Shown piece after piece: positions 11,296-59,267 of a stretch of 59,419 bases of DNA. Source of the stretch: a virus; IMG/VR virus record IMGVR_UViG_3300030099_002167, positions 1 through 59,419 of that record; one strand, written 5' to 3'. The notes under the pieces were generated by a model, which was given only the letters and a program-made list of their open reading frames with translations, was not told where the DNA came from and ran no database searches. The stretch's first letter is position 1. Each line of letters opens with the position of its first letter. The translations under genes were made by a program, and so were the position numbers.

Positions 11296-11454
11296 TTAAC
11301 AGCGTGTGAACTTTTGCTTTTTAGCATTCCAACACTTCTGTGATTTATAATACTTCTTCTTAGATTTACACATTCTCTGTGAAGCACAGGATGACACTAG
11401 GAAGAGCCCTGTTAATAACGTAGCTATTAACGTTAATTTACTTATCCTTCTCAT
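11296..11454 (-). CDS. small lipoprotein (52 aa), basic after the lipobox
   Basis: The frame runs from ATG at 11454 to TAA. The N-terminus is a type II signal: MRRISKL, a hydrophobic stretch, then the lipobox LVSSC with Cys23. The mature part of 30 residues is Lys/Tyr-rich with three further cysteines. It starts inside the 3' end of the coiled-coil ORF (17-base overlap), which itself overlaps the DUF4846 gene: a three-gene coupled set. A small lipoprotein next to a membrane-anchored protein recalls o-spanins, but spanins usually sit beside the endolysin, and here the set is in the replication arm. Confidence 0.7.
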   Translation of the reverse strand: MRRISKLTLIATLLTGLFLVSSCASQRMCKSKKKYYKSQKCWNAKKQKFTRC

Positions 11455-22954: not shown

Positions 22955-24391
22955 ATGGCAGCAGATAATTTAAAAAAGCTTCGTTTATACGAAGACATTT
23001 TCAACGCTGAGGGTATGACTGATGAGAACTCATTAGCGAACGCCCTTTTAACTCAGCCTGATGTACTGTCACCGGTAATAACTCATCTAGCAGGAAGAGA
23101 AGATAAGAGATTTCCTCTATCTTTCCTAACTGAAGGACAGGGAGCTATCAAGTACATCAACGACATTGAGTATGATTATCCAGTAATGGGTAGAATTAAC
23201 AAAACTGTAGAATCAAGCTCATTAGTGAGTGGTTCTGGAGTTAACTTCACTAGATTCAAAGTAAAGTTCAATGAAAAATGGTTCATTAAGCAATACATTA
23301 TTGAAAGTGAAGAAGGAATCCAAGCAAGAGTAATGACTGATCCTGTCGAATCAGACGGAGGTTGGGTATATACTTTACAATTAGTTACTGCAGATGCAGC
23401 TGACTCTGTTAGCAGCGGAAACTGTGCAGGAAAGAAATGGGTACAATTATTTGCACCTACTGCAATTTCTGGATCAGTTGGTAACGAAAGTAATTGGGTT
23501 GCTCCATCTAAAATGAGAAACCAAATCTCTTTAATCAGAAAATCTTACCGATATGAAGGTAATATGCCTGACAAAGTGGTTAACTTCGAGTTTAATGTAG
23601 ATGGCAGAAAAACAAATCTATGGTATGACTTTGAAGAGTATCAGCACATGCTGAGATGGAAAGAAGAAACAGAGTATGCTCTGTGGTATTCTAAGTACAA
23701 CAGATCTTCAGATGGTACTATTAATTTGAAGGATGACAATAACAAGCCTATTCCAATCGGAGCAGGAGTTATTGAGCAAATTCCTAACGTTGATACGTAT
23801 TCTTCATTAACAACTAACAAGATCAAGTCTGTAGTAAGAGACGCATTATATGGTGCTTCTGATGCTCAGCAAATGAACATTGTGTTGTTTACAGGAATCG
23901 GTGGTATGGAAGAATTTGATAACGCTATGAAGAGCGAGATCAGTTCTGGTACTTACATCAAAAACACAGATCCATCTAACTTTATTTCTGGTAGTGGTTC
24001 TAACCTACAATTAGGAGGTTATTTCACTTCTTACCAGCATATTGATGGTCACGTGATTACAGTAAGACACTTACCATTATTCGACCACGGTGCGAGATCA
24101 CTAAACAGTCCAAAACATCCTGTTTCTGGTTTACCACTAGAATCTTATAGAATGTTATTCCTTGATATGTCTACATATGATGGAGAAACTAACGTTCAAA
24201 TGGTTTCTAGAAAAGGTAGAGAACTAGTAAGATGGGCAGTAGCTGGTGCTTCTGTTCCTCCAGGATTTAGCGGTGGTAACTCACTAAGAGCAAACGATGT
24301 AGACGGTGCATCAGTTCACTTCATGAAAGAAACTGGTATTGCAATCAGAAGAGCTACAAATTGTTTACACTTAGAGTGTGTGAAATCATAA
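22955..24391 (+). CDS. major capsid protein
   Basis: A 478-residue protein following the scaffold-like gene and ended by a strong terminator, as expected for the most abundant virion protein. It begins with helices (NLKKLRLYEDIFNAEGMT) then VLSPVITHLAGREDKRFPLS and FLTEGQGAIKYINDIEYDY; I associate the 'THLAGR' and 'FLTEGQG' segments with capsid proteins of crAss-like phages. The remainder is consistent with an HK97-type fold (long beta strands, then a helix-rich A-domain near 285-330). The leader is A/T only. Confidence 0.8.
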   Translation: MAADNLKKLRLYEDIFNAEGMTDENSLANALLTQPDVLSPVITHLAGREDKRFPLSFLTEGQGAIKYINDIEYDYPVMGRINKTVESSSLVSGSGVNFTRFKVKFNEKWFIKQYIIESEEGIQARVMTDPVESDGGWVYTLQLVTADAADSVSSGNCAGKKWVQLFAPTAISGSVGNESNWVAPSKMRNQISLIRKSYRYEGNMPDKVVNFEFNVDGRKTNLWYDFEEYQHMLRWKEETEYALWYSKYNRSSDGTINLKDDNNKPIPIGAGVIEQIPNVDTYSSLTTNKIKSVVRDALYGASDAQQMNIVLFTGIGGMEEFDNAMKSEISSGTYIKNTDPSNFISGSGSNLQLGGYFTSYQHIDGHVITVRHLPLFDHGARSLNSPKHPVSGLPLESYRMLFLDMSTYDGETNVQMVSRKGRELVRWAVAGASVPPGFSGGNSLRANDVDGASVHFMKETGIAIRRATNCLHLECVKS

Positions 24392-45739: not shown

Positions 45740-46169
45740 ATACGGAGCAAAAGACATGTATAAGTTCTTTGTAAAAAAGAACCCAGATACAGATGTAACA
45801 TATACTCTATTTAAGTATATAATATCAAAGTTTAACAAAAAGATTGTTAACAAAGTATTAGATGGTAAAGAGTTTTATATGGGACATAGATTAGGTACAA
45901 TAAGTATACGTAGAATAGAAAGAAACTTTGATAAGAAAAGTGTAAATTACTTTGAGACTAAAAAACTCAAAGAACAAGGAATAGATAAAGTAGTGTATTA
46001 TACTGACGAACATTGGTTTCGCTGGTATTGGACTAAAGCAAAATGTCAAGTACCTAATAAAAGTGTGTATAAGTTTTCTCCTACTAGTGGACCTAATGGG
46101 ATAAAACGTGCACTGTCAAATAAGTTAAACCAGGATGAATTTGCATTCTTAAACTATGTAAAAAAATGA
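45732..46169 (+). CDS. conserved phage protein with Trp-rich WFRWYW motif, unknown function
   Basis: Start chosen at ATG 45732, which overlaps the previous stop (ATGAATAG) and gives 145 residues; an upstream ATG at 45708 would add 8. Key segments are FYMGHRLGTISIRRIERNFD, DEHWFRWYWTKAKCQVPNKS and PTSGPNGIKRALSNKL. I remember similar proteins in the tail module of Bacteroidetes phages, always without a known function. It overlaps the next ring-protein gene by four bases (ATGA). Confidence 0.65.
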   Translation: MNRYGAKDMYKFFVKKNPDTDVTYTLFKYIISKFNKKIVNKVLDGKEFYMGHRLGTISIRRIERNFDKKSVNYFETKKLKEQGIDKVVYYTDEHWFRWYWTKAKCQVPNKSVYKFSPTSGPNGIKRALSNKLNQDEFAFLNYVKK

Positions 46170-46960
46170 ATTATAAACACACAAGTGCAAAACATGTTAT
46201 CTCTAAAATATTTAGAGACCTAAGAATCAATGATGAAGGCTGGGTTCTAGATGCTATGGAGTGGATTGGAGAAGCTTTGGAGTTTATAGGACATGTATCT
46301 ACTACAGAAAGAAAAGCAACAGAACTAACAATAAGTAGTCATAAAGCTATATTACCTAATGATTTATTATGGATAAATCAAGTTGAATATAATGGATCTG
46401 CCTTAGCTTATGGTGGAGATACAGCTGGATATGATTTACCAAATGCACCAAGAACAACAAACATGACACCTAATGGTACAGACAGCTCTACCTTTACTTC
46501 TGCTTATACAACAGATGTAAACAATACAAGTAATAATCAAAGCGGTCTGACATTACGTAAAACACAAAATAGTCCTTATGGAGGAGATTATTATCTTATA
46601 AACAACGGGGCTATACAAACAAACTTTCCGGATGGTAAGCTAAAAATACATTACAGTGCCTATCCTACAGATAAAGAAGGATATCCTATGGTTCCTGATA
46701 ATGTATATGTTAAACAAGCATTAGAGTGGTATGTTCTTAGACAAATGCTGATGGGTGGATATAAACATCCTCAGTTTGACTGGGCTTTTGCTGATGCTAA
46801 ATGGGGTCAATACTGTGTCAGTGCTGGTAATGATCTTGCTTATCCATCAGTAGACAAAGTAGAAGCATTTAAAAATATGTGGTGCAGGTTAATACCTAAT
46901 ATTAATCATCATAGAGATTTCTTTATGGCAACACAAACTCAAGAACAAATACTTAAATAA
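46166..46960 (+). CDS. ring/tail tubular-type protein
   Basis: A 264-residue protein. An N-terminal DEGWVLDAMEWIGEALEFIG helix, then ILPNDLLWINQVEYNG, then LKIHYSAYPTDKEGYPMVPD, YVKQALEWYVLRQMLMGG and WAFADAKWGQYCVSAGND. This helix-strand-helix plan parallels head-completion proteins of the P22 gp4/T7 gp11 type as seen in crAss-like phages. It is immediately upstream of the 2484-residue muzzle-like protein in a TAATG overlap. Confidence 0.6.
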   Translation: MNYKHTSAKHVISKIFRDLRINDEGWVLDAMEWIGEALEFIGHVSTTERKATELTISSHKAILPNDLLWINQVEYNGSALAYGGDTAGYDLPNAPRTTNMTPNGTDSSTFTSAYTTDVNNTSNNQSGLTLRKTQNSPYGGDYYLINNGAIQTNFPDGKLKIHYSAYPTDKEGYPMVPDNVYVKQALEWYVLRQMLMGGYKHPQFDWAFADAKWGQYCVSAGNDLAYPSVDKVEAFKNMWCRLIPNINHHRDFFMATQTQEQILK

Positions 46961-49900
46961 TGAAACTAAGTAAAGGGCTTTATAAAGATACTGATCCTAT
47001 AGATCAGCTGTTGGGTACATATCCAAACGCTAGGAATATGATCATTAACAAAGTACAAGGAGCTCTTGTAAATGAACTGGGTTTTGACAAAGTGCATGAT
47101 TTAAATAAAAAGATAGTAGGATCTATTCCTATTATTAATGATGAAATCATACTATTTTCTAGAGATGATGATGATGCTACACAAACAACTAGTACTGCTT
47201 TAGCTAAAGTAACAATAACTTTTCCTAATACTATGTCGGGTACTCTTACTGTTGCATATATAAATAGTAATGGTACAGCACAGGAACAAGTAATAAATAT
47301 GCAAGAGACAATAGCTGAGGACTCTACTATTGCAAGTCATGATGTTACTATAAACGGAGGCTCGTTCATTCAATATAGTACTAATGCTGACTTAACTTTT
47401 ACTTTTAGTATTCCGCCTTCTACTGATAGTGATAATGTTGCATCTAATCTTACAATAACTCCTATACAACAAAGCACTGTAACTACTATAGCATATGAGT
47501 CAGAAATAGGAAGACTGTCAAAAGATGGAGTATATACTACTATATTAAAATCAGATTCACTTAAGTTTAGATCTGATTCTTTTATGAAAGGTATTTATGT
47601 TTTAAATTTTAATAAAGAAATTATAATTGCTTTTACAGATGATAAAACACAACCTAAAATACTTAATATAGATAAACTACCTTTTTCAGTTGATGCTAAT
47701 AAAAAAATAATAGATGAAAAGGAAATAGTATTAATGTACATATTCCCTGAGTATAAAAGACCTGTAGTTGTATATAAAGAAGTAGTAGATAACGGAGGAG
47801 CTTTAAAAACAGGTGCTTATTTTCTGTCTTTTGCTTATGAATTAGAAGATGGTAGTAGAACTAATTTTACTCCTTTAGATGGTCCTATAATAGTTACTAA
47901 TTCTACTTTAGAGTTAACAGGATCATACAGAAAAGATATGCAAAATAACTTTGAGTTAGTATCAATGTATGATGGAGCAGAACCAAATACTACAAGCTCT
48001 AAGTCTATACGATTTAAAGTAACTAATGTTGACTTAAGATATAAGTATTTACTTTTTGCAGTTTATAAAAAAATAGGAGGTAATACAACAAGTGAGTTAG
48101 TACAAAAAATAGAAATAGCTTCTGTATTAAACCTTTTAGATGGATCAGATGATGATATACCATCTAGTGGAGCTACTACTGTAAATACACCTGACTCTGA
48201 AGATACAGATGAAGGACTTACTATTACATATTCTGGAAGAGAAACAAGTATAGATCTTCTTCTAGAGGATATAAGTATAGGTAATGATACTTACTCTACT
48301 GCTAAAACAATTACATACTTTGACAGTAAACTATTTTTAGGTAACCTAACATCTCACGAAGATTTTAACTATCAACCTTTTGCCATGAATATACAATCAA
48401 CATGGACAAGAGATTATATAGATGTTAACTCTGTAAGAGGATCTTACAAAGATGAGTTAATGGTATATAATAAACGTGGGTTTAGACCTGATGAAGTTTA
48501 TGCTTTTTACATTGCATTCTTATATAATGATGGTACTTGGTCTGGTGCATACCACATACCGGGTAGAGATAAAGAAAAGGTTACAGTGTCGTTAGAAGAT
48601 GCTAATGGTAATTATTTATCACCTGTTACTGTAGATGAAGATATTAAACTAAAAGATATTGTACTAGGAGATGTAACAGAAGGGACAATTACAAGCACTG
48701 ATAGAATACAATATCAAGATATATTTCAACATGATTTAGGTATTAGCAAAAATATAAAATGGTTTCATACAAGAGAAACTGCTAGGATAGATGGTAAAAT
48801 GGGTTACTGGTCTAATGCAACAGAGTTATATCCTGGAGATCCTACCACTTTTGGATCTAGTGCAGGTACTCCTGTTAGACATCATAAGTTTCCTGGATAC
48901 GAAACAATGAATGGATTGAATACAACTTTTATTCAACAAGATGCTGATGGTAATAGTATACCTCCAGGTGGAACAGGAGTTGGACATTTAGTTGTTATTG
49001 CATACATGGATAGTTGTATGATGGATCTTAGACCTTCTATTGTAGGTGACGAAGAAGAATACATGAGTCAAGGAAGTAATGACTTAAGTAAAAGTACTGC
49101 TCACAATCACTTATATAATAGACAAAGAGTTTATCATCACTTGTATTTATATATTGCTTCTGGTAATGGACAAGCTGCTCCGGGATATTACTTCCTAGCT
49201 CAGTCTCTAGATCCTAGAGATTTTACAGATACAGGAGGAGCATTCTCTCATTATCTTACCGATCCTGTAATAGAAATATCAGGAGATCAAAGAAGGGGAG
49301 ACTGGCAACATAGTAATATACCTCCTCAAAATATTGTTGATGGTACTAATGCTATAAAAGATTTGTATCCTAACATGTTAACTCCTAGAAATACTGATAG
49401 ATTAGCAGATGGACTTGATTATGAGTATGAAGGAACTAAAATGAATAAAGATGGATGTGGATTCGAAAGAGATATCTTTGAACTCCCAATGAGAACAGAG
49501 CAGTCTTATGAATATATAAATGGAGGGGATGCTCAGTATTACGCATCTAATGTTTTTATGGGTCATTGGTATCACAAACACTGTAGAAATGGTAAGCTAT
49601 GTGGTCCAGGAACACCAAAAACACAAGCGTACGCACGTAGATGGGGAGAAGGAAAAAATGCAAAGTGCCCTAGAGCAAGAGGACCTTATAATTATTATGA
49701 ATGGAATCTACAACATTTAGATATAATACAAGGATCAGGTGATACAGGTGTAGGTAATTTTACAGTTATACCTAACTGGTGGTCTAGTACTAGTAATCAA
49801 GTAAGTGATTCTACTCTTAATGGTAATGGTATAAAAACAATTAGAAAAGACGTTGAGTATAACTTTTCTGCTTCTTTAGGTAATTATACACAGCCTAGTT

Positions 49901-52900
49901 TTATAACATCTCAACCTTATGGAGCTGTAGGTAACGGACAAGTAAAACAAACTAATTTTGCTAACGCAACTACTTCTGTTTCTACTAGTACTCTTGCTCC
50001 AGTAACTTTTGAGTCTTTTCACACAGGTCCTTCTGGTTTGGCTAATGCGGTTGCTCAGGCTCCGTTAACTGGTAATTCTCAATTTCCTACAACTAAAACA
50101 GGTAATACTCCTGATGGATTCTTTAGTAATAATAATTATACTTATACTGCAGTAGGTCCTCATACCTTATATATCAGTGGTAAGTTTGGATGTTTAGTAG
50201 AAAGCTCGTACACATCTGGAGACGAAAAGAAACCAAGACAGATTGTAATATCAGGTATAAGAAAACTTAGAAGAGGGGATCCTGACGATGAAACAACATG
50301 GGAAAGAACAGACGTATTTAAAAATACAGAGACGAACCAAGGAACACTAAAAGCATCTGGAGATAAAGTAGCTACTTCTACACTAGGAGGAAACTTTTTA
50401 TCAGAAGATGTAGAAAATGTATTTAGACCTGATGTCTTTGTTGCTATTACTTTAAATACAGGTGATATACTACAGTTTTATCATGAGACTACAGTTACAG
50501 GACTTGGTTCTGTATCTCATACTAATTCTACAACACCTACTAGAATAGCTTATGAATATGATTTACAGTTCTTAACTTATAAATATACATTCCCAGAACC
50601 TACATATAGTCCGTACTCTATGTATACAGCTGTACTAGGTATTAGATTTAATAATATAGAAATACCTAGAGAGTTAGCAAAAGATATACAAGGGTATCAA
50701 TTCTTCTATGCAGAAAGAGATGCAAAAAATACACAAACGTTTGATCAGTCAATTGCATTTCATGGAGCTCCTCATGCTTTATTCCCAGATGAAGAAGGAT
50801 CATACGCAGGTCACTTGATACCTATGGGCAATCTAAGATTAACAAGTACTAATGAATATGGAGATACAGGGTCTGGGTATACATCTTCAGACTGGAGTCA
50901 AGAGGGTCTTACAATGGATGGTAATGACTTTAGTAAACAACATAAAATAAATCCGTCATCATTTAGATTTCATGGATTTAATGTGTTAAACTTTAAACCA
51001 AATGTACAAGGAGCTTATATAAAAAGAGTAGCTGAGTTAGGATCTTGTGAGTATACGGATGTTAGATTAAATACTATTACAAACGCTAATCAATTAGATG
51101 CAGGTAAAGATACTGCTGATACAGCAACAGCAGCAGGTGGAGGTGATCCATTCTTTTTGAATTCTACAACTACAGGAAAAAATAATACTGTAGATACTAT
51201 ACTACAAGCAGGATATAATCAAATATGGAATAGATATGGTACTTCTACAACAGCACAAAGAAACCCAAGTTTTAGTTTAGCATCTAATCATTACTATAAA
51301 TTAAGACAGCTGCAAGATATAGGGTATGTTCCTGGAGATACAGTTGTTACTAAAAAGAGTGTTACTGTAAACAATACTTTTTCTGAAGAGTGTTTACATG
51401 CAACAATTGTACATTATGATAATGAAAATAACTGGAGTGAAATAAATCATCATACAGGATTCTTAAGTAGTAGTGTTGATAGTAATACTAATATTACTAC
51501 ATACACTGAACCTATGGGGTGGAGAAAAATAAAATCTAACTTTGAAACAGAAACTGGTAGTCAAATAGTAGACCAAATACAAGGACCTAAATATAACCTA
51601 GTTGATTTAAAATCATATAAGACTAATTTATATAATAGCTTTTATGATCAAAAGTTTATAGCAACTAAAAACTACTTTAAACTTACAGATAATCAAAAAT
51701 TAGAAATAGAAATAAATCAAAGTATAACCTTAGATACTGGACCTATATACGGTGGAGATACATTTACAGGAATGTACGGTGTAAGACTAACAGGACCTGC
51801 ATACTACTCTAAAGGTAAAGATGCAGAAATATGGTCTTCTTCTAATAAACTACACGGAGTTAAAAATATATTCTTCTTCCCTGTATATACTGCAGCTAAC
51901 GTAGCCTTACGACATGCTGCAACTGAAGTTTTTAAAGATAGTTATTATCCTAGATGTGGTGTAGGATCTTTAACAAATTCGGGAGAAACTACTACAATAA
52001 ATAGTAGACTAGATCAAAAGAAACAAGCACTCCATAACTATAGAGGAAGAAGTACAGATATAGATAATACAAATAGTATTACATATAATCAAGATTATAG
52101 TTCATTAAATAATTATAATGTATTAACTGCTTATGATAACAGAGACTTATTTTTAGGTAAGTTTCCTTATAGAATTATAAGAAGTCAGCCTTTTGCTCAA
52201 GAAGATAAAACAATGAGCTTAAAAGAGTTTAGATCAAATGACTTTTATGAAATGGTAAAAAACCGTGGTCACCTAGTTAACTTAGAAGGAATAGGAAAAG
52301 AGTTAATTATACATCACGAACATTCTATATTTAAAACTACAACTAAAGATGTTATAGCTACTAACACAGCTCAAGCAACTTTAGGTACTGGAGATATATT
52401 TCAGTTTGCTCCTACAGAGCTTATAACATCAGAAAACGGATATGCAGGTACACAGCATCTTTCTTCTATTCTTATAAGCAAGGCTGGATATAGCTTTGTG
52501 GATGAAGAACAAGGCAAAGTATTTTTAGTAAATAATAAATTACAAGAAATATCTTCTACTGGGTTAAGACAGTGGTTTAGAGATAATCTATCTTTCCAAA
52601 ACACTACAACTCCTAGTACAGACACTCCTTTTAATTTAGGAGGCTCTGGATATGTTACTGCATTTGACGAATTAAATAATAGAATATTACTAACTAAAAA
52701 AGATCTAAAACTAAATGTACCACTAGTAACTGATGTACAGGTTCCTACAACCTTCTTAGCAGTAGATCCTGCTTGTCAGTTAGACAGTGATGGTAATCCA
52801 ACTGGTTTTGTAATTTACCAAAACTTACAAGTATTAGATCAATACGGAGAGCTAATAGAAACTGTTCCTAACGTTAGCACTCATGAAGGCTATGTAGCTC

Positions 52901-54414
52901 CAAGCTTAGATCCTGTGTTGTGTCCTAGTAAGCCTACACTTTATCTAGAGTGGGTTGGTAGAAAAGGATCTAGAGTTAATAAGTTTGAAGGTGAAAAGGT
53001 TGTCTTAAAAGCAGTTGTTAGCGAACCACAAGACGGAGATCTAACAGTTACTGTTGCATACTCTGGTACTTATGATCAAGCAGGAATACCTGGAACTACA
53101 ATTGTTATACCTACAGGAGCAATAGAGGCTGAAATAGAAGGAGCAACTTTAACTATTGATCAAGTTATTGAACTTACACCGGATGAAACAATTATAGCTA
53201 CTGCTACTGCAGTTACTAAAGATGGAGGATTAGATGATAATAATAATCAAATAACAATACAAAATGCAGCTGATATTATAGGATCTGCTGTTACAGTAAA
53301 AGTATTAGATTGTCCTGTATTAGCTAATGATAGTGCTGCAGGTATTACTAATGGTGGTAGTACAGATATAGTATTATCTAACAATGATAGCTATGGATCT
53401 ATTGTCTCAGGAGTTGATGAGATATACAAGATAACAGGATTACCAGTAGATAGCAGTAATAATATAATAGGAACACTTACTGATAATAATAACAACAATG
53501 CTTCTTTAGTCGTAGGTAGTACTCTTACTAAGTCAACTTCTGGTACTAATGGACAAAGTCAACCAGGAACATACTCTGTTAAGTTTACACACAACAGTAC
53601 TGCAGCAACAACTGGATCATTTTCATATAGCGTATCTAAAGCTTCTTGTAGCACTACTGCAACTGTAGACTTAGGAGTTTTATCAGTAGATGAAAATACT
53701 TACATAGATATTTTCTTTGATGATTCAGGATCCATGGGTACTACAGAAGATGATTTAAATGCTATGAAGAATGCTCCTTATAGTAATCAACACGGACTTA
53801 GAAAACTATTACAAGACTTTTATGCTACAGGTCAAACAGAAGCTCAAGGAAATACAAATACAACAACTAATGGAAAAGATGCATATGATTCTAAAGTAAG
53901 AATAAGAGACTATTCAGATTTAAGTACTAACCCTGTAGAAAGAACTTGGCACTGTTTAAATAATGGAGGTGCAGGCTTTGGTACAGGAGCTAGTGATCCG
54001 TATCCATCTGCTTCAAAAGTAATTATGTTTGCATTTCAAGATGAAGCAAATGGTGTTTATCATCCGGCTTCAAACTTTAATACTACTTCTACTACTAGTC
54101 AGCATGACACAGATATCGGCAATCTAAAAACAACTATAACAAACTTAAATTCAAGCGATGCCGCTTTCTATAGAGCTAACGTATTCCAAGTAGCTACTTC
54201 TACAACTGGAGAAAACTTAGCATTTAAGCAGTATTTAACAGCAGTAAAAGATGGAACAGGAGTATACAATGCTGGAGGACTAAGCGGTGTAAGTAATGTA
54301 GGATTTACATTTGATGTAGTTCCTAATAATGATGGAGGTTCAGGTGCACCTAATACAGGATATTATAAAAACTTAATAAAAACCGCGATGGAAAATCTCG
54401 GATTTACATTTTAA
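46960..54414 (+). CDS. giant muzzle/tail-hub-like protein with C-terminal vWA domain (2484 aa)
   Basis: The protein starts KLSKGLYKDTDPIDQLLGTY without a signal peptide. Segments such as VYAFYIAFLYNDGTWSGAYH and GKFPYRIIRSQPFAQEDKTM resemble the muzzle proteins that form the tail end of crAss-like virions. After about residue 1990 come Calx-beta-like or Ig-like modules (VVLKAVVSEPQDGDLTVTVA). The last 240 residues hold a second vWA-type domain with MIDAS DDSGS starting at D2254 and a later SKVIMFAFQDE. The very large size and multi-domain tail suggest it forms the tail tip and contacts the cell. Homology to muzzle proteins is from memory. Confidence 0.7.
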   Translation: MKLSKGLYKDTDPIDQLLGTYPNARNMIINKVQGALVNELGFDKVHDLNKKIVGSIPIINDEIILFSRDDDDATQTTSTALAKVTITFPNTMSGTLTVAYINSNGTAQEQVINMQETIAEDSTIASHDVTINGGSFIQYSTNADLTFTFSIPPSTDSDNVASNLTITPIQQSTVTTIAYESEIGRLSKDGVYTTILKSDSLKFRSDSFMKGIYVLNFNKEIIIAFTDDKTQPKILNIDKLPFSVDANKKIIDEKEIVLMYIFPEYKRPVVVYKEVVDNGGALKTGAYFLSFAYELEDGSRTNFTPLDGPIIVTNSTLELTGSYRKDMQNNFELVSMYDGAEPNTTSSKSIRFKVTNVDLRYKYLLFAVYKKIGGNTTSELVQKIEIASVLNLLDGSDDDIPSSGATTVNTPDSEDTDEGLTITYSGRETSIDLLLEDISIGNDTYSTAKTITYFDSKLFLGNLTSHEDFNYQPFAMNIQSTWTRDYIDVNSVRGSYKDELMVYNKRGFRPDEVYAFYIAFLYNDGTWSGAYHIPGRDKEKVTVSLEDANGNYLSPVTVDEDIKLKDIVLGDVTEGTITSTDRIQYQDIFQHDLGISKNIKWFHTRETARIDGKMGYWSNATELYPGDPTTFGSSAGTPVRHHKFPGYETMNGLNTTFIQQDADGNSIPPGGTGVGHLVVIAYMDSCMMDLRPSIVGDEEEYMSQGSNDLSKSTAHNHLYNRQRVYHHLYLYIASGNGQAAPGYYFLAQSLDPRDFTDTGGAFSHYLTDPVIEISGDQRRGDWQHSNIPPQNIVDGTNAIKDLYPNMLTPRNTDRLADGLDYEYEGTKMNKDGCGFERDIFELPMRTEQSYEYINGGDAQYYASNVFMGHWYHKHCRNGKLCGPGTPKTQAYARRWGEGKNAKCPRARGPYNYYEWNLQHLDIIQGSGDTGVGNFTVIPNWWSSTSNQVSDSTLNGNGIKTIRKDVEYNFSASLGNYTQPSFITSQPYGAVGNGQVKQTNFANATTSVSTSTLAPVTFESFHTGPSGLANAVAQAPLTGNSQFPTTKTGNTPDGFFSNNNYTYTAVGPHTLYISGKFGCLVESSYTSGDEKKPRQIVISGIRKLRRGDPDDETTWERTDVFKNTETNQGTLKASGDKVATSTLGGNFLSEDVENVFRPDVFVAITLNTGDILQFYHETTVTGLGSVSHTNSTTPTRIAYEYDLQFLTYKYTFPEPTYSPYSMYTAVLGIRFNNIEIPRELAKDIQGYQFFYAERDAKNTQTFDQSIAFHGAPHALFPDEEGSYAGHLIPMGNLRLTSTNEYGDTGSGYTSSDWSQEGLTMDGNDFSKQHKINPSSFRFHGFNVLNFKPNVQGAYIKRVAELGSCEYTDVRLNTITNANQLDAGKDTADTATAAGGGDPFFLNSTTTGKNNTVDTILQAGYNQIWNRYGTSTTAQRNPSFSLASNHYYKLRQLQDIGYVPGDTVVTKKSVTVNNTFSEECLHATIVHYDNENNWSEINHHTGFLSSSVDSNTNITTYTEPMGWRKIKSNFETETGSQIVDQIQGPKYNLVDLKSYKTNLYNSFYDQKFIATKNYFKLTDNQKLEIEINQSITLDTGPIYGGDTFTGMYGVRLTGPAYYSKGKDAEIWSSSNKLHGVKNIFFFPVYTAANVALRHAATEVFKDSYYPRCGVGSLTNSGETTTINSRLDQKKQALHNYRGRSTDIDNTNSITYNQDYSSLNNYNVLTAYDNRDLFLGKFPYRIIRSQPFAQEDKTMSLKEFRSNDFYEMVKNRGHLVNLEGIGKELIIHHEHSIFKTTTKDVIATNTAQATLGTGDIFQFAPTELITSENGYAGTQHLSSILISKAGYSFVDEEQGKVFLVNNKLQEISSTGLRQWFRDNLSFQNTTTPSTDTPFNLGGSGYVTAFDELNNRILLTKKDLKLNVPLVTDVQVPTTFLAVDPACQLDSDGNPTGFVIYQNLQVLDQYGELIETVPNVSTHEGYVAPSLDPVLCPSKPTLYLEWVGRKGSRVNKFEGEKVVLKAVVSEPQDGDLTVTVAYSGTYDQAGIPGTTIVIPTGAIEAEIEGATLTIDQVIELTPDETIIATATAVTKDGGLDDNNNQITIQNAADIIGSAVTVKVLDCPVLANDSAAGITNGGSTDIVLSNNDSYGSIVSGVDEIYKITGLPVDSSNNIIGTLTDNNNNNASLVVGSTLTKSTSGTNGQSQPGTYSVKFTHNSTAATTGSFSYSVSKASCSTTATVDLGVLSVDENTYIDIFFDDSGSMGTTEDDLNAMKNAPYSNQHGLRKLLQDFYATGQTEAQGNTNTTTNGKDAYDSKVRIRDYSDLSTNPVERTWHCLNNGGAGFGTGASDPYPSASKVIMFAFQDEANGVYHPASNFNTTSTTSQHDTDIGNLKTTITNLNSSDAAFYRANVFQVATSTTGENLAFKQYLTAVKDGTGVYNAGGLSGVSNVGFTFDVVPNNDGGSGAPNTGYYKNLIKTAMENLGFTF

Positions 54415-54416
54415 TT

Positions 54417-55202
54417 ATGCCAACTAATATAAATACATTATCAGACGGTCAACTAGTTCTTAATCAAGGACAGTACTATGTTGTTGCAACAGTTAATGGT
54501 AAAAAAGTACTACAGCTTATAACTGCAGCACAGCTAGCTACCTTTTTTACAGATAATAGTTGGACATTATCTTTTTCGTTAGATACACAAGCTTGGATTT
54601 CTTATCATGATTACACCCCTTATCTAATGACTAACACTCGTAATGTATTATATTCAATGAATTACGATGAAATATATAAACACAATATACCTACTAAATA
54701 TGCAAGGTTTTATGAAGTAGGAGGTACACAACAAACATATGCAAGTTTTGTAGATGCAGTATTTAATGAACAGCCGGATCGTAGTAAAATGTATGCAACG
54801 GTCAACTGGATATCTAAGACTACAGCATCAAACGGAGCACACTTATATAATAGTACTATTACTGATTTACTAATATATAACTCGTATCAGTGTTCTGGTA
54901 ATCTTGATTTAGTGAGGAAAACCTCAACAAACCAAGAAGATATACGTAATTTTAATATGTTTAATACAGAAGGCACTTGGTCTGTTAATAAGTTCCGAGA
55001 TATTGTTATTAATCCTGACAATCCCTTCATAGACAGTAATTTAGAACTAATAACTAGTAACTTAAATGTTAATAAAGACTGGTTTACTAAAAAGAGGTTT
55101 GTAGATAAGTTCATAATTTCTCGTTTTTCATTTGACAATGTAAGCCAAAATAGTTTATATTTGTATGATGTTAGTGCGAATATGAGATTATCTGCCAGAT
55201 AA
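54417..55202 (+). CDS. muzzle-associated protein (261 aa), possible split C-terminal part
   Basis: A 261-residue protein starting 2 bases after the giant gene. Segments NSWTLSFSLDTQAWISYHDY, TPYLMTNTRNVLYSMNYDE and KRFVDKFIISRFSFDN look like the C-terminal region of muzzle proteins in related phages, where I remember 'W.lSyS....WiSfHSY.P....' at the end of one long protein. Here it is a separate gene, and the preceding protein ends instead in a vWA domain. A split or domain swap is therefore possible. Confidence 0.55.
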   Translation: MPTNINTLSDGQLVLNQGQYYVVATVNGKKVLQLITAAQLATFFTDNSWTLSFSLDTQAWISYHDYTPYLMTNTRNVLYSMNYDEIYKHNIPTKYARFYEVGGTQQTYASFVDAVFNEQPDRSKMYATVNWISKTTASNGAHLYNSTITDLLIYNSYQCSGNLDLVRKTSTNQEDIRNFNMFNTEGTWSVNKFRDIVINPDNPFIDSNLELITSNLNVNKDWFTKKRFVDKFIISRFSFDNVSQNSLYLYDVSANMRLSAR

Positions 55203-55225
55203 TATTAATTTTAGATATCAAAGAT

Positions 55226-55308
55226 AGTCAGCGTAGTAATAAAGTTCCAAAGAATACCAAAATTTAGTATAGAATCTCCAATTATATAGTAACAGCAGCT
55301 CGCTGACT
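55226..55308. other. 8-bp inverted repeat bounding an intergenic leader
   Basis: AGTCAGCG (55226-55233) and CGCTGACT (55301-55308) are perfect complements around 67 bases. They sit in the only intergenic gap of note between 54417 and 56601 and just before the ATG of the outer-membrane-like protein. Could be an RNA structure or a recombination remnant. Confidence 0.4.
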
Positions 55309-55335
55309 CTCTCTGATAATAAACACTAAATAAAA

Positions 55336-56601
55336 ATGAGAGATTCTTATACTTATAAAAGAGGTACTTACATCTTTACCTTAATATTCTTATTATGTTC
55401 TTTTGTAACCTACGGTCAAGTAGAAAAAGAAAAGAAGAACATTTTCAAATCTATATACGAACAGATCTTTAAATACGGAACTATTTACGTAGCTGGAGAT
55501 ATTAACAATGCTCAAGTAGAGCAAGAGTCTTTTTTTGTTAGACCTCCAGAAGGTGGAAGTTTATATGATGTACCAGAAGTAATAGATGTAACTATCAAAC
55601 ATCCTTTTGATTATAGATATGGATTTGGAATCCGTAAGCTTGGTCGTTTTGGATACGAGAGAAAGCCGGATAACTTCTGGACTGGTAATGTAAAAAGAGA
55701 AAAACAAAATGCATTATCTGCTCCTACTTCTGCAGTTGACGGTTTAGAATACTTACTACACTATGAAAAGGAAAGACATAGAGGAATGGTTTGGAACAAC
55801 TCTAGATTCTTTATTAGACACACTGGTAAATATCATATTGCTAAGCTAGAGCAAAGAAATATAGGATCAAGAGACTTCGAATATAAATCAGCAGAGCTTA
55901 GATTTAGACTACCACTAGGTAGCAAAGCTTCTATTTCAGCTGGCGCAATCTACCGTACTCATCAACGTGGTTATGGATTTAATCCAATAGAGCTTTGGTT
56001 AAACCAAATGGAAACAGATGAGTTTGGTAATCAATACCCTGCAAATCCTTGGTACAGTCTTGGATATCAATACGGATACGAAGACGTATACTACTCATCT
56101 GTTGTCTACAATAATGATGGTACAGTTGAACAAATGGGAGACTGGTTATGGAGAGATGATCAGGGAAACATAGTTGCATATACAGATTTACAGTTTAGAA
56201 ATACTGTATTTAGAAAACTCATGAATAGATATAACAGAGAGTTTTGGGAAACTGTAGAACCTTATCATGTTGTATCACCTATTGTAGGTATGGATTTCTA
56301 TCATTATAAGTCTAGTTTCTGGATACATGCATACGCTAGTGTACTACTTCCTTATCATAAATATATATTTAATGATAGAGAGTGGGATGAACTAAACTAT
56401 GGATATAGAAATGGATGGAAGTACGATCCTGTAACAGGAGATGAAAACGAATTTGAACAATGGTTAGACTACCAAGGGGGTCTAAACATGGGATGGAAAA
56501 TTAGTAAGACGCTTGGGGTATTTGTAGAAGGAGAATATACTAAAATGTGGGATACTGAATTTTTTAACTCAACCTTTGGAATTAATTATACATTTAGATA
56601 A
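55336..56601 (+). CDS. phage-encoded secreted protein, probable outer-membrane beta-barrel
   Basis: A 421-residue protein with a signal peptide (MRDSYTYKRGTYIFTLIFLL, then CSFVTYG-Q, cleavage near residue 28). The mature part has many short alternating strands rich in Y, F, W and G (RYGFGIRKLGRFGYERKP, SFWIHAYASVLLPYHKYIF, GLNMGWKISKTLGVFVEGEY) and ends in FGINYTFR, a terminal pattern like those of outer-membrane barrels. Size fits a 14-16-strand barrel. Phage proteins of this kind could alter the surface, for example by blocking the phage's receptor; that is inference. Confidence 0.65.
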   Translation: MRDSYTYKRGTYIFTLIFLLCSFVTYGQVEKEKKNIFKSIYEQIFKYGTIYVAGDINNAQVEQESFFVRPPEGGSLYDVPEVIDVTIKHPFDYRYGFGIRKLGRFGYERKPDNFWTGNVKREKQNALSAPTSAVDGLEYLLHYEKERHRGMVWNNSRFFIRHTGKYHIAKLEQRNIGSRDFEYKSAELRFRLPLGSKASISAGAIYRTHQRGYGFNPIELWLNQMETDEFGNQYPANPWYSLGYQYGYEDVYYSSVVYNNDGTVEQMGDWLWRDDQGNIVAYTDLQFRNTVFRKLMNRYNREFWETVEPYHVVSPIVGMDFYHYKSSFWIHAYASVLLPYHKYIFNDREWDELNYGYRNGWKYDPVTGDENEFEQWLDYQGGLNMGWKISKTLGVFVEGEYTKMWDTEFFNSTFGINYTFR

Positions 56602-56670: not shown

Positions 56671-56991
56671 ATGGCACGACAATTAGACGAAAATACATCT
56701 ATGGGTATAGATATAGATGGAGATGGTAAATCAGATTTTGCTATATCACTTAAAACAATAGGAGGCTTAATAGCTGGTATTGTGGCATTAGCTGGTATGT
56801 GGTTTACACTACAGGCAGATATAGCTGAAGCTAAAGAGTTGCCTAAACCAGAAATATCTAGAACTGAGTATGATTTAAAAGACGAATTAATTAGATCTAC
56901 AATATTAGATACACAAGATGATGTTGAAGATATAAAAGAAAAATTAGATAAGATAGACGAAAGGCTATACGAAATACAGAAACAAAGATGA
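56671..56991 (+). CDS. membrane protein with one TM and coiled coil, holin/spanin-like
   Basis: A 106-residue protein: an acidic DIDGDGKSDFAIS N-terminus, one hydrophobic helix near 27-48 (TIGGLIAGIVALAGMWFTL), then a long coiled coil (DTQDDVEDIKEKLDKIDERL). One TM plus a periplasmic or cytoplasmic coiled coil suits an inner-membrane spanin subunit or an accessory holin. Its stop overlaps the next gene by four bases (ATGA), a secreted thioredoxin-fold protein. Confidence 0.5.
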   Translation: MARQLDENTSMGIDIDGDGKSDFAISLKTIGGLIAGIVALAGMWFTLQADIAEAKELPKPEISRTEYDLKDELIRSTILDTQDDVEDIKEKLDKIDERLYEIQKQR

Positions 56992-57398
56992 AACACATAA
57001 TACTATTACTAATAAGCTTCTATACCTTTGCACAAAGCGATGTACCAGAAGAGTATTGGATTGATGATAGCAACTTTGAAGAAACAATAAATCAAAGATC
57101 CGCATTTGGAGATGATAACCTACAACCTATAGTAGTAGAGTTCTGGGCAGAATTTAATAAAGAAAACTGCTTTGCAGAATGGGATAAAGTAGAAAATGCT
57201 TTATACTATAGAATAGATATATCAAAAGCACCTAATGCGAAAAAGAAATACAAGGTGCGTATGGCACCTACCGTTATTATATTTTATGACGGTATAAAAG
57301 AAACAGCTTTCAAGGCAGGTTTAGATCTACTGCTACCTGCAGATTTAGCTGATATACAAGAAGCAGTAGACCAAGCCGCACAAGCGGGACAATTTTAA
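56988..57398 (+). CDS. secreted thioredoxin-fold protein lacking the CXXC motif
   Basis: A 136-residue protein with signal peptide MKHIILLLISFYTFA-Q. The core VVEFWAEFNKENCFAEWDKV at 49-68 is the thioredoxin 'vvvefWaxWCxxC' region with only one cysteine (C61). A proline near MAPTVIIFYDG is at the cis-proline position. Alanine-rich C-terminal helix. Loss of the dithiol active site means a reductase is unlikely; a chaperone- or adaptor-type role is possible. It is expected to be periplasmic. Confidence 0.65.
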   Translation: MKHIILLLISFYTFAQSDVPEEYWIDDSNFEETINQRSAFGDDNLQPIVVEFWAEFNKENCFAEWDKVENALYYRIDISKAPNAKKKYKVRMAPTVIIFYDGIKETAFKAGLDLLLPADLADIQEAVDQAAQAGQF

Positions 57399-57402
57399 AG
57401 AT

Positions 57403-57621
57403 ATGAATATATTAAAAAGATGGTGGACTAAGTTATGGAGCAAAACCACAGTTGACGAGAAAGCCATAGCAACAGTAAAAGAAGTTAAAAGACGTGCTAA
57501 AAATGTAGGTCAAGAACTATCTGATGTAGGTAGTGCTATGAAAGAAGTTGGTAATCAACTTGGTGATGTAGGAGCAGCAGTAAAAGGTAAAAAAAGAAAA
57601 GGAAGAAAAAGAAAAAAATAA
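57403..57621 (+). CDS. small amphipathic helical protein with lysine-rich tail (72 aa)
   Basis: MNILKRWWTKLW start, a long amphipathic helix with repeats of the form 'DVGxAxKEVGxQLGDVG', and a tail of K and R (KGKKRKGRKRKK). Could bind DNA through the tail and membrane or protein through the helix. Opens the run of very small basic genes. Confidence 0.65.
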   Translation: MNILKRWWTKLWSKTTVDEKAIATVKEVKRRAKNVGQELSDVGSAMKEVGNQLGDVGAAVKGKKRKGRKRKK

Positions 57622-57785
57622 TGAATTTATTTAGTTTAATTCATATTCGTCTTCTAGGAGACGGTGCTTTATTAGGATTTACTTATTTTAGTAAAGATGA
57701 TAGAATACCTGAGTATGCAGACGAAGATTGGTATGAACTAAATATTTATTTTATTATAATTGCAATAACACTTAGATGGCATTAA
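57621..57785 (+). CDS. small membrane-type ORF (54 aa)
   Basis: Starts in a TAATG overlap with the basic gene, encodes an N-terminal MNLFSLIHIRLLGDGALLGF segment, an acidic middle, and a hydrophobic ending (NIYFIIIAITLRWH). Likely a small membrane protein; not recognised. Confidence 0.5.
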   Translation: MNLFSLIHIRLLGDGALLGFTYFSKDDRIPEYADEDWYELNIYFIIIAITLRWH

Positions 57786-57786
57786 T

Positions 57787-57960
57787 ATGAAAGTAAAAGG
57801 CGTAAACGTAGATAGTCTAAATAAAAGACAACAGAATGCTCTTAAAAGGCATTCTAAACATCATACAGTAAAGCATATAAGAAGTATGGTTACTGCTATG
57901 AAAAAAGGCGCAACGTTCGGTAAATCGCATAAAATGGCGATGAAGAAAGTTGGTAAATAA
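57787..57960 (+). CDS. very basic small protein (57 aa)
   Basis: Starts 1 base after the previous stop. About a third of its residues are K or R, with several His (LKRHSKHHTVKHIRSM). Predicted helical; ends MAMKKVGK. Resembles a small DNA-condensing protein. Confidence 0.65.
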   Translation: MKVKGVNVDSLNKRQQNALKRHSKHHTVKHIRSMVTAMKKGATFGKSHKMAMKKVGK

Positions 57961-57986
57961 TTGTGTAACTATATAATATTTTCAAA

Positions 57987-58139
57987 ATGGGAAATAAAAA
58001 AATGAAATATGGAGGCGGTGGTAAAATGAGACCAGCAAATCCAGGCATGTATGCAATAGGTGGCATGTTAGATAAAAAAATAAGTAAGATGGGTGGCGGA
58101 ATGTTAGCTGCTATGAACATCAAAAAAAGAAAAGTATAA
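57987..58139 (+). CDS. small Gly/Met/Lys-rich protein (50 aa)
   Basis: Starts after TATATAATATTTTCAAA. Contains KYGGGGKM, YAIGGML and SKMGGGMLAAM, recurrent Gly-Gly-Met motifs, and a basic end (NIKKRKV). The 'Y-x-x-GGM' motif recurs in the next gene. Confidence 0.6.
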   Translation: MGNKKMKYGGGGKMRPANPGMYAIGGMLDKKISKMGGGMLAAMNIKKRKV

Positions 58140-58141
58140 CC

Positions 58142-58267
58142 ATGGGATGTGGATGCATGAAAAAAGGTGGATCTACAAAACGTAAGAGAAAGAGAAAAAC
58201 TTATTCTTACGCATATGGTGGTATGTTAAGTTTAAAAAAATTCCGTAAGGACGGATGTAAAATGTAA
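58142..58267 (+). CDS. small basic Cys protein with YGGM motif (41 aa)
   Basis: Starts 2 bases after the preceding stop. MGCGCMKKGG start, then KRKRKRKTYSYAYGGML and a basic Cys end (RKDGCKM). Shares the YxxGGML motif with its neighbour. Highly basic. Confidence 0.6.
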   Translation: MGCGCMKKGGSTKRKRKRKTYSYAYGGMLSLKKFRKDGCKM

Positions 58268-58272
58268 TTATT

Positions 58273-58440
58273 ATGGCAAAAAAAAAGAAAAAAGGATTAT
58301 ACGCAAATATCCACGCTAAAAGAAGACGTATCAAAGCAGGCTCTGGTGAGAAAATGAGAAAGCCAGGATCTAAAGGAGCTCCTACAGCTGCAAACTTTAG
58401 GAGAGCTAAGAAGACTGCTAAGAAACGTAAAAAGAAATAA
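58273..58440 (+). CDS. small Lys-rich protein with NIHAKRRRIKAGSGE motif (55 aa)
   Basis: About 45 percent K or R. The central LYANIHAKRRRIKAGSGEKM and PGSKGAPTAANF segments are ones that I recall from hypothetical proteins of marine phages of several types, close to structural genes. No function known; the pattern suggests a conserved nucleic-acid-binding virion component. Confidence 0.7.
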   Translation: MAKKKKKGLYANIHAKRRRIKAGSGEKMRKPGSKGAPTAANFRRAKKTAKKRKKK

Positions 58441-58442
58441 TT

Positions 58443-58727
58443 ATGGCAAAGGCGATTAGACGTACTACAGGCAAAGGCGGTAACTACCGTAAAACTAAGT
58501 CTGGAGCAGGCATGACTCGTAAAGGAGTTAGAGCTTACAGGCGTGCTAACCCTGGATCTAAACTTAAGACAGCTGTTACCGGTAAAGTTAAAAAAGGTAG
58601 CAAAGCTGCTAAAAGACGAAAGTCATACTGTGCTAGAAGCTTAGGACAACTTAAGAGGTCTAGTGCAAAAACTAGAAATAATCCGAACTCTAGAATAAGA
58701 CAAGCTAGACGTAGGTGGAAATGTTAA
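58443..58727 (+). CDS. DUF6321-like basic protein (94 aa)
   Basis: Contains GNYRKTKSGAGMTRKGVRAY, RANPGSKLKTAVTGKVKKGS and NPNSRIRQARRRWKC, which match my memory of DUF6321, a protein family seen widely in marine phages and often linked to the virion. Strongly basic. Last of the longer basic genes; only two bases separate it from the previous stop. Confidence 0.75.
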   Translation: MAKAIRRTTGKGGNYRKTKSGAGMTRKGVRAYRRANPGSKLKTAVTGKVKKGSKAAKRRKSYCARSLGQLKRSSAKTRNNPNSRIRQARRRWKC

Positions 58728-58745
58728 ACACTTAAATAAATAATT

Positions 58746-58832
58746 ATGCCTAAAGGTAAAGGAACATACGGGTCTAAAATGGGAAGACCTCCTAAAAAAA
58801 AGAAAAAAACCACTAAGAAAAAAAAGAAATAA
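58746..58832 (+). CDS. 28-residue Lys-rich micro-protein
   Basis: MPKGKGTYGSKMGRPPKKKK start and an all-Lys/Thr tail. The 'GKGTYGSKMGRPPKK' segment looks like other phage micro-proteins that I recall. It stops just before the holin gene. Coding is supported by its position and the same composition as its neighbours. Confidence 0.55.
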   Translation: MPKGKGTYGSKMGRPPKKKKKTTKKKKK

Positions 58833-58835
58833 ATT

Positions 58836-59267
58836 ATGGGAAAACCAAAAAAGAAGTTTTCTGAAACTAAGGTAGGAGCATTCTTATCTAAGGCTGCTCC
58901 TAGTATATTAGGTATAGCAGGAGATGTAATACCTGATGCAGGTGTATTAGGTTTAGTAAAAAATCTTATATCAAAAGATAAAACTATGCCTGCTGAAGAT
59001 AAAGAAAAAGCAATGAAGTTGTTAGAAATTGATATGATAGAGATGCAAGAAGTGTCTAAAAGATGGACTGCTGATATGGCTAGTACAAGCTGGCTTAGCA
59101 AAAATGTGCGTCCTATAACTTTAATTTTCTTTTCAGTATCCTATATAGTAGGTTGGTATTTAGGTTATCAACTAGATAGTGTAGCAGGAGTTCTTTCATT
59201 AATTGTAGGAGCATACTTCGGTTCTAGAGGGATTGAAAAGGTAATGGGTAATAACAGACATAAGTAA
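58836..59267 (+). CDS. holin of the 3-TM family
   Basis: A 143-residue protein. After a basic N-terminus and an amphipathic helix, the second half reads SKRWTADMASTSWLSKNVRP, then hydrophobic TLIFFSVSYIVGWYLGYQL and VAGVLSLIVGAYFGSRGIEK. The SWLSKNxRPxTLIF...YFGxRGIEK pattern is that of phage holins of the 3-TM (GTA-type holin) family. It would open the inner membrane for the endolysin candidate at 44063. The stop shares its last A with the next ATG. Confidence 0.85.
   Translation: MGKPKKKFSETKVGAFLSKAAPSILGIAGDVIPDAGVLGLVKNLISKDKTMPAEDKEKAMKLLEIDMIEMQEVSKRWTADMASTSWLSKNVRPITLIFFSVSYIVGWYLGYQLDSVAGVLSLIVGAYFGSRGIEKVMGNNRHK

Follow-up and report, generated by a model that had tools for sequence, protein, structure and literature searches.

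Many marine phage contigs carry a fixed cassette of three genes whose products may work together on the outer membrane of the host at the end of infection. In the window, the whole 59,419-nt viral stretch analysed here, these are OMB, o106 and trx. Predicted structure and conservation support OMB as an outer-membrane beta-barrel, and the gene is a single-copy part of the cassette rather than a stray moron. That the three proteins form a spanin-like outer-membrane disruption complex, in which the barrel replaces the o-spanin lipoprotein, is in our judgement an evenly balanced proposition, with the function read from gene linkage and topology.

The window phage and its late genes

The window covers part of the genome of a crAss-like phage, as indicated by its capsid, tail ring and muzzle-like tail proteins, the last two kinds encoded upstream of OMB. 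The crAss major capsid protein lies at 22955..24391 (+; PF23898, E 5.2e-90) and crAss tail ring protein 1, which marks the phage as crAss-like, at 46166..46960 (+; PF24228, E 2.7e-50). A large muzzle-like tail protein follows at 46960..54414 (+; phrog_15100, E 4.6e-35) and, directly upstream of OMB, a muzzle-like virion protein at 54417..55202 (+; phrog_15100, E 1.8e-16; PF25729 at E 0.013, below cut-off). OMB itself (55336..56601, +) starts with ATG and encodes 421 aa. It is adjoined by o106 (56671..56991, +; 106 aa), which overlaps trx (56988..57398, +; 136 aa; PF00085, E 1.5e-5) by 4 nt. Further on are o72 (57403..57621, +), which encodes a small basic protein that 24/72 type-A representatives also have near the cassette, and a holin-family gene (58836..59267, +; PHROG 3427, E 5.4e-12). 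The earlier note had placed the barrel gene between tail genes and lysis-type genes, and this order agrees with it.

A related contig of 67 kb continues beyond the window at both ends; where the two align well they are about 98% identical. Among the genes scanned in the window phage and in a stretch of this twin contig, none was recognised as an endolysin. The late strand of the window yielded no lipobox protein; one lipobox ORF of 52 aa without a C-terminal TM lies on the opposite strand (11296-11454, -). Between trx and the holin gene (57621-58832) there is a run of short, strongly basic ORFs of 28-94 aa that are KKRK/GGG-rich, one of them a DUF6321 protein. A long stem can form in the 133-nt gap before OMB (55203-55335; AGUCAGCG/CGCUGACU, z -2.5), which may be a leader or have a regulatory role. 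Sigma-70-like sites were no more numerous than the shuffled expectation.

A predicted outer-membrane barrel

The N-terminus of OMB, MRDSYTYKRGTYIFTLIFLLCSFVTYGQ, has the hydrophobic core of a signal peptide spanning approximately residues 1-27/28. At the end of this core, Q28 is at least 90% conserved across the family alignment. Cleavage sites of the form ...A/G-Q are typical of Bacteroidota. The signal peptide named in the earlier note is thus borne out, and from sequence and conservation OMB is predicted to be exported by it. The C-terminal NYTFR end likewise recurs: nearly every type-A relative ends in N(Y/F)T(F/L/I)(R/K).

An AlphaFold2 model built on a 127-sequence alignment that included the divergent subfamily reached a mean pLDDT of 82.5 and a pTM of 0.72; it replaced a first model from 20 sequences, which was too poor (pLDDT 61.5). 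The model is a membrane beta-barrel, as the earlier note had suspected, with about 12 long strands and a loop hairpin. Counted on the model, the strands are 49-57, 92-101, 136-148, 151-163, 167-176, 181-194, 198-209, 310-325, 328-337, 378-388, 393-404 and 407-418; the predicted barrel may have 14 strands rather than 12. An insert of about 100 residues (210-309) containing an extra hairpin faces outward in the model. Taken together, the export signal, the antiparallel barrel of the predicted structure and the C-terminal beta-signal are those of an outer-membrane beta-barrel.

The structure matches listed from the PDB (Foldseek, VIA-align 2) were overwhelmingly outer-membrane barrels, including transporters such as CymA and FadL. 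The best Z among them was 11.3 (TamA, 185 residues at 3.7 A); Foldseek TM-scores were low, and with 4-11% identity the likeness is at the level of the fold. Assignment to a known barrel family was rejected, as Z values of approximately 9-11 reflect the shared barrel fold only. Searches of Pfam, PHROGs, NCBIfam and PDB sequences gave no match to OMB above threshold. A clear homologue of the barrel is the unnamed viral protein A0A516LKJ4 in BFVD (342 aa; Foldseek E 5.8e-28, TM 0.65, 23% identity), a relative that tblastn did not recover in the phage collection. In type A, the long outward loops are slightly more variable than the strands (1.2-1.5 vs 0.4-1.2 bits), and because the difference is so slight, an arms-race role at the cell surface is disfavoured.

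The partner proteins

The o106 protein has one TM helix near its N-terminus, followed by a helix with regular hydrophobic a/d heptad spacing. Its C-terminus would lie in the periplasm; the sole basis for this orientation is a weak bias in mean K/R before versus after the TM (1.99 vs 1.09 in type A, 1.72 vs 1.03 in type B). A match to the PHROG 'Rz-like spanin' at E 0.3 was left unused. Some o106 proteins, including the window copy (56671-56760), bear an N-terminal DIDGDGKSD motif resembling a calcium loop, which others lack and which sits on the predicted cytoplasmic side. Some cassettes contain two o106 paralogues, of which the second has diverged and shows a conserved FRIKWPRGEMGALPDDAKQDLRI segment (L045:1353-1658, L047:9185-9499 and L209:6090-6422).

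The trx protein has a thioredoxin fold behind a signal peptide with an invariant Q16. An FN..N motif replaces CxxC, and none of 136 trx proteins has a CxxC after residue 20, so they lack the mark of a catalytic thioredoxin. Neither OMB nor trx has a lipobox; the N-termini of both are SPI-type, with a conserved Q where cleavage would occur.

Linkage of the three genes

In the 72 type-A loci that are non-redundant at 85%, both o106 and trx were present wherever enough flank was visible; the only loci without them are those in which the contig stops 178-309 bp past OMB. Independent scans also recovered the trio, in 69/80 loci when starting from trx and in 72/80 when starting from o106, the misses of the trx scan being truncations at contig edges. 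Coupling of o106 to trx is tight (median gap -1 and -4; within -40..+20 in 67/69 and 66/67 loci). Of 52 type-B loci whose downstream flank spans 4 kb or more, 49 kept both partners, and three with about 5 kb downstream had neither; the cassette is usually followed by genes for an M15 peptidase and a PHROG-3427-type holin. Three loci (L028, L105, L090) retain the linkage in the alternative order o106-trx-OMB. Gene-tree distances correlated within the trio with rho 0.25-0.53, compared with 0.14 between OMB and its upstream gene, a modest congruence. Four loci (L210, L222, L228, L264), one of them in a record of 106 kb, have o106 and no detectable OMB in the record. In L228 and L264 the trx that accompanies the barrel-less o106 is shortened, and a holin-like gene is found further along; L228 also has an M15 peptidase by Pfam.

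Type-B loci may also encode a secreted, acidic, Cys-rich and repeat-bearing protein of 150-255 aa between the barrel and o106 or the holin (L310:5975-6742, L343:6668-7363, L291:5975-6553, L282:5975-6655). It matches the LDL-receptor-A domain weakly and belongs to no known family; a T9SS C-terminal domain suspected by eye had no NCBIfam match and was dropped.

Lysis genes near the cassette

Genes for M15_3 peptidase, Amidase_2 and holins were found in representative cassette loci with Pfam and PHROGs. Counting cluster members by their similarity to tested representatives, an endolysin-type gene is nearby in 46/72 type-A loci, and an endolysin or holin-like gene in 58/72. One cluster of 83-aa proteins without a family match is holin-like only by its two hydrophobic stretches. 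Where virus records contain M15_3, it lies within 2.5 kb of OMB in 10/12, against an expected 0.98 (P 7e-10, an optimistic value that assumes random placement and independence of records that are in fact related). Several crAss-like and large-phage loci have no endolysin near the cassette. A lipobox ORF is nearby in 28/72 cassettes, and thus cassette phages may also possess conventional spanins; u-spanin-like ORFs lie near only 2/72.

Distribution, copy number and hosts

Relatives of OMB were found in at least 569 IMG/VR stretches, redundancy included, a lower bound since only stretches matching the search pattern were counted. A further 103 stretches carry the divergent type B, which is 27-34% identical; the type-A profile matches 80/80 kept type-B members (E <= 2.5e-42). 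The copy number is exactly one in 36/36 phage records checked. With more than 600 homologous viral stretches and this single copy, the ORF is no chance frame. A crAss capsid was found in only 8/39 cassette records (one below cut-off), and the gene therefore seems to be spread over different phage lineages, with records of 164-181 kb among its carriers.

Among 395 genomes of the phylum and 88 of the family of a Bacteroidetes MAG, there was no OMB homologue except on one phage contig in the query MAG, and four matches in genome_contigs are all on MAG contigs, at least two of which (L028, L029) have phage-type neighbours. Close host homologues outside phage regions, as expected for a host-derived moron, were thus absent from the sampled genomes. 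With at least 569 viral relatives and a single copy in a fixed phage cassette, this speaks against the recent host-acquired moron that the earlier note had offered as an option. Its remark that barrels are unusual in phage genomes needs qualification: BFVD contains phage-borne barrels of other kinds, and the OMB family is common in marine phage contigs. A different phage-encoded membrane protein with an OmpA domain, phi14:2 gp002, lies near the start of its record (L359:283-1278). A tblastn search of cultured phages with both OMB types, o106 and the short and long trx found no homologue of the cassette, its matches being ordinary thioredoxins only.

Discussion

If the spanin-like reading is correct, OMB would be the outer anchor, inserted in the outer membrane in line with its predicted fold, and o106 would be anchored in the inner membrane by its one helix and send its coiled coil into the periplasm in the manner of an i-spanin, as its TM and heptads suggest. 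The exported trx, which has no redox motif, would serve as the adaptor between the two. Once the holin and the endolysin had done their part, the bridge would draw together, fuse or rupture the outer membrane, by analogy with Rz/Rz1. The trio would then be a trans-envelope complex, held together by contacts we infer between the proteins, for the last lysis step in phages of marine Bacteroidota-type hosts.

Several features of this arrangement resemble the two-component spanins Rz/Rz1 of lambda (PMC6139136, PMC5295617). The inner-membrane protein with its N-terminal TM and putative periplasmic coiled coil would be matched by o106. There is a predicted outer-membrane partner, and the genes are adjacent or overlapping in a lysis-module position, as seen in the o106-trx gaps and the proximity of endolysin and holin genes. 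Unlike Rz/Rz1, the cassette has a beta-barrel instead of a lipobox lipoprotein as the outer partner and adds a third, exported protein of thioredoxin fold; no sequence relation was found. Neither OMB nor trx is an outer-membrane lipoprotein with a lipobox, as an o-spanin is. With unimolecular spanins such as T1 gp11 only the proposed role is shared, since the cassette consists of three genes and none of OMB, o106 and trx combines a lipobox with a C-terminal TM. For want of the lipobox and of homology to spanins the cassette is not classed with them: we propose that it works like a spanin, in interaction, topology and function, and not that it is one. By its own account the main survey of spanins leaves other anchors out of its criteria, and it names an outer-membrane protein as a possible o-spanin (PMC6139136). 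For known Bacteroidetes phages only unimolecular spanins have been reported (PMC12596118), and the text on cultured North Sea flavophages names a spanin for only a few (PMC8776804).

In favour of the spanin-like complex count the linkage of the trio, the nearby lysis genes, loops that are not hypervariable and a late strand of the window on which no lipobox protein was found. Against it stand the o106 loci without OMB, the type-B loci without o106 and trx, the lack of a recognised endolysin among the scanned genes of the window phage, the modest tree congruence, the weak K/R basis for o106 topology and the lipobox ORFs nearby. Linkage to lysis genes would also suit a helper of lysis or release that needs no spanin-type fusion. 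Here OMB would act as an 'outer holin' that forms a pore in the outer membrane or weakens it, and o106 and trx would serve its control or assembly. Its predicted barrel fold suits a pore, and the few records with o106-trx and no OMB suggest that the barrel may be a separable module. Such a helper nevertheless seems unlikely to us, as a fixed membrane-anchored coiled-coil protein and an exported adaptor exceed what a pore needs, and the large insert (210-309) and L5 may close the barrel.

Exported phage envelope proteins commonly exclude superinfection or mask receptors, and a trio that remodels the envelope could block adsorption or injection by other phages, a role that the large outward loops of the OMB model would fit. 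The variability of these loops, only slightly above that of the strands, the single copy with fixed partners across unrelated phages and the position beside endolysin and holin genes leave this reading a small chance. Among the functions proposed in the earlier note, release agrees best with the findings, since the barrel gene is linked to o106, trx and the genes for endolysins and holins. Nothing here speaks positively for receptor change or for exclusion, though neither is refuted. A porin or transporter that serves host fitness as an auxiliary gene, altering uptake during infection, would agree with barrel matches such as CymA and FadL. We consider it very improbable, given that these matches are at fold level only, that no host homologue occurs in the sampled genomes and that the gene is tightly linked to o106, trx and lysis genes. 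Hardly any weight falls on a virion or genome-delivery component, packaged or forming a conduit at infection: the tail genes upstream of OMB hint at one, but OMB and trx have signal peptides, and of the phages that carry the cassette some have a crAss capsid and others do not.

Returning to the spanin-like complex, we put forward its broadest form more hesitantly, as somewhat likelier to be wrong than right: the outer membrane would be disrupted by a widespread class of lysis machine in which a catalytically dead thioredoxin links a phage barrel anchor to a coiled coil in the inner membrane. Such machines would share no homology with any known spanin and would be common in those phages of marine Bacteroidota that are thought to be spanin-less. 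For phages of ocean bacteria the cassette offers a candidate that is concrete, testable and abundant, and profiles of OMB, o106 and trx may permit annotation of the outer-membrane disruption step in uncultured phages.

The cassette itself was sought and rejected in Cellulophaga phi14:2 and Croceibacter P2559Y and P2559S, where the OMB, o106 and trx profiles had no match; P2559S and P2559Y are listed as spanin-less. Members of the phrog_25644 family (Cellulophaga phi14:2 gp073, Croceibacter P2559Y gp23) lie beside the endolysin in marine Bacteroidota phages. The family was not found in the window phage and gave only marginal matches (E 7e-4 to 7e-3) in three type-B records. Unlike the cassette, it is a single protein, judged by eye to have a TM at its N-terminus and, towards the C-terminus, amphipathic strands that end in an aromatic residue. 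As a lead, it may be a one-protein bridge from the inner membrane to an outer-membrane barrel. Proteins of this build beside the endolysin are at L360:19230-19808 (-) in phi14:2, L357:22998-23621 (+) in P2559Y and, split, L358:27300-28065 (+) in P2559S.
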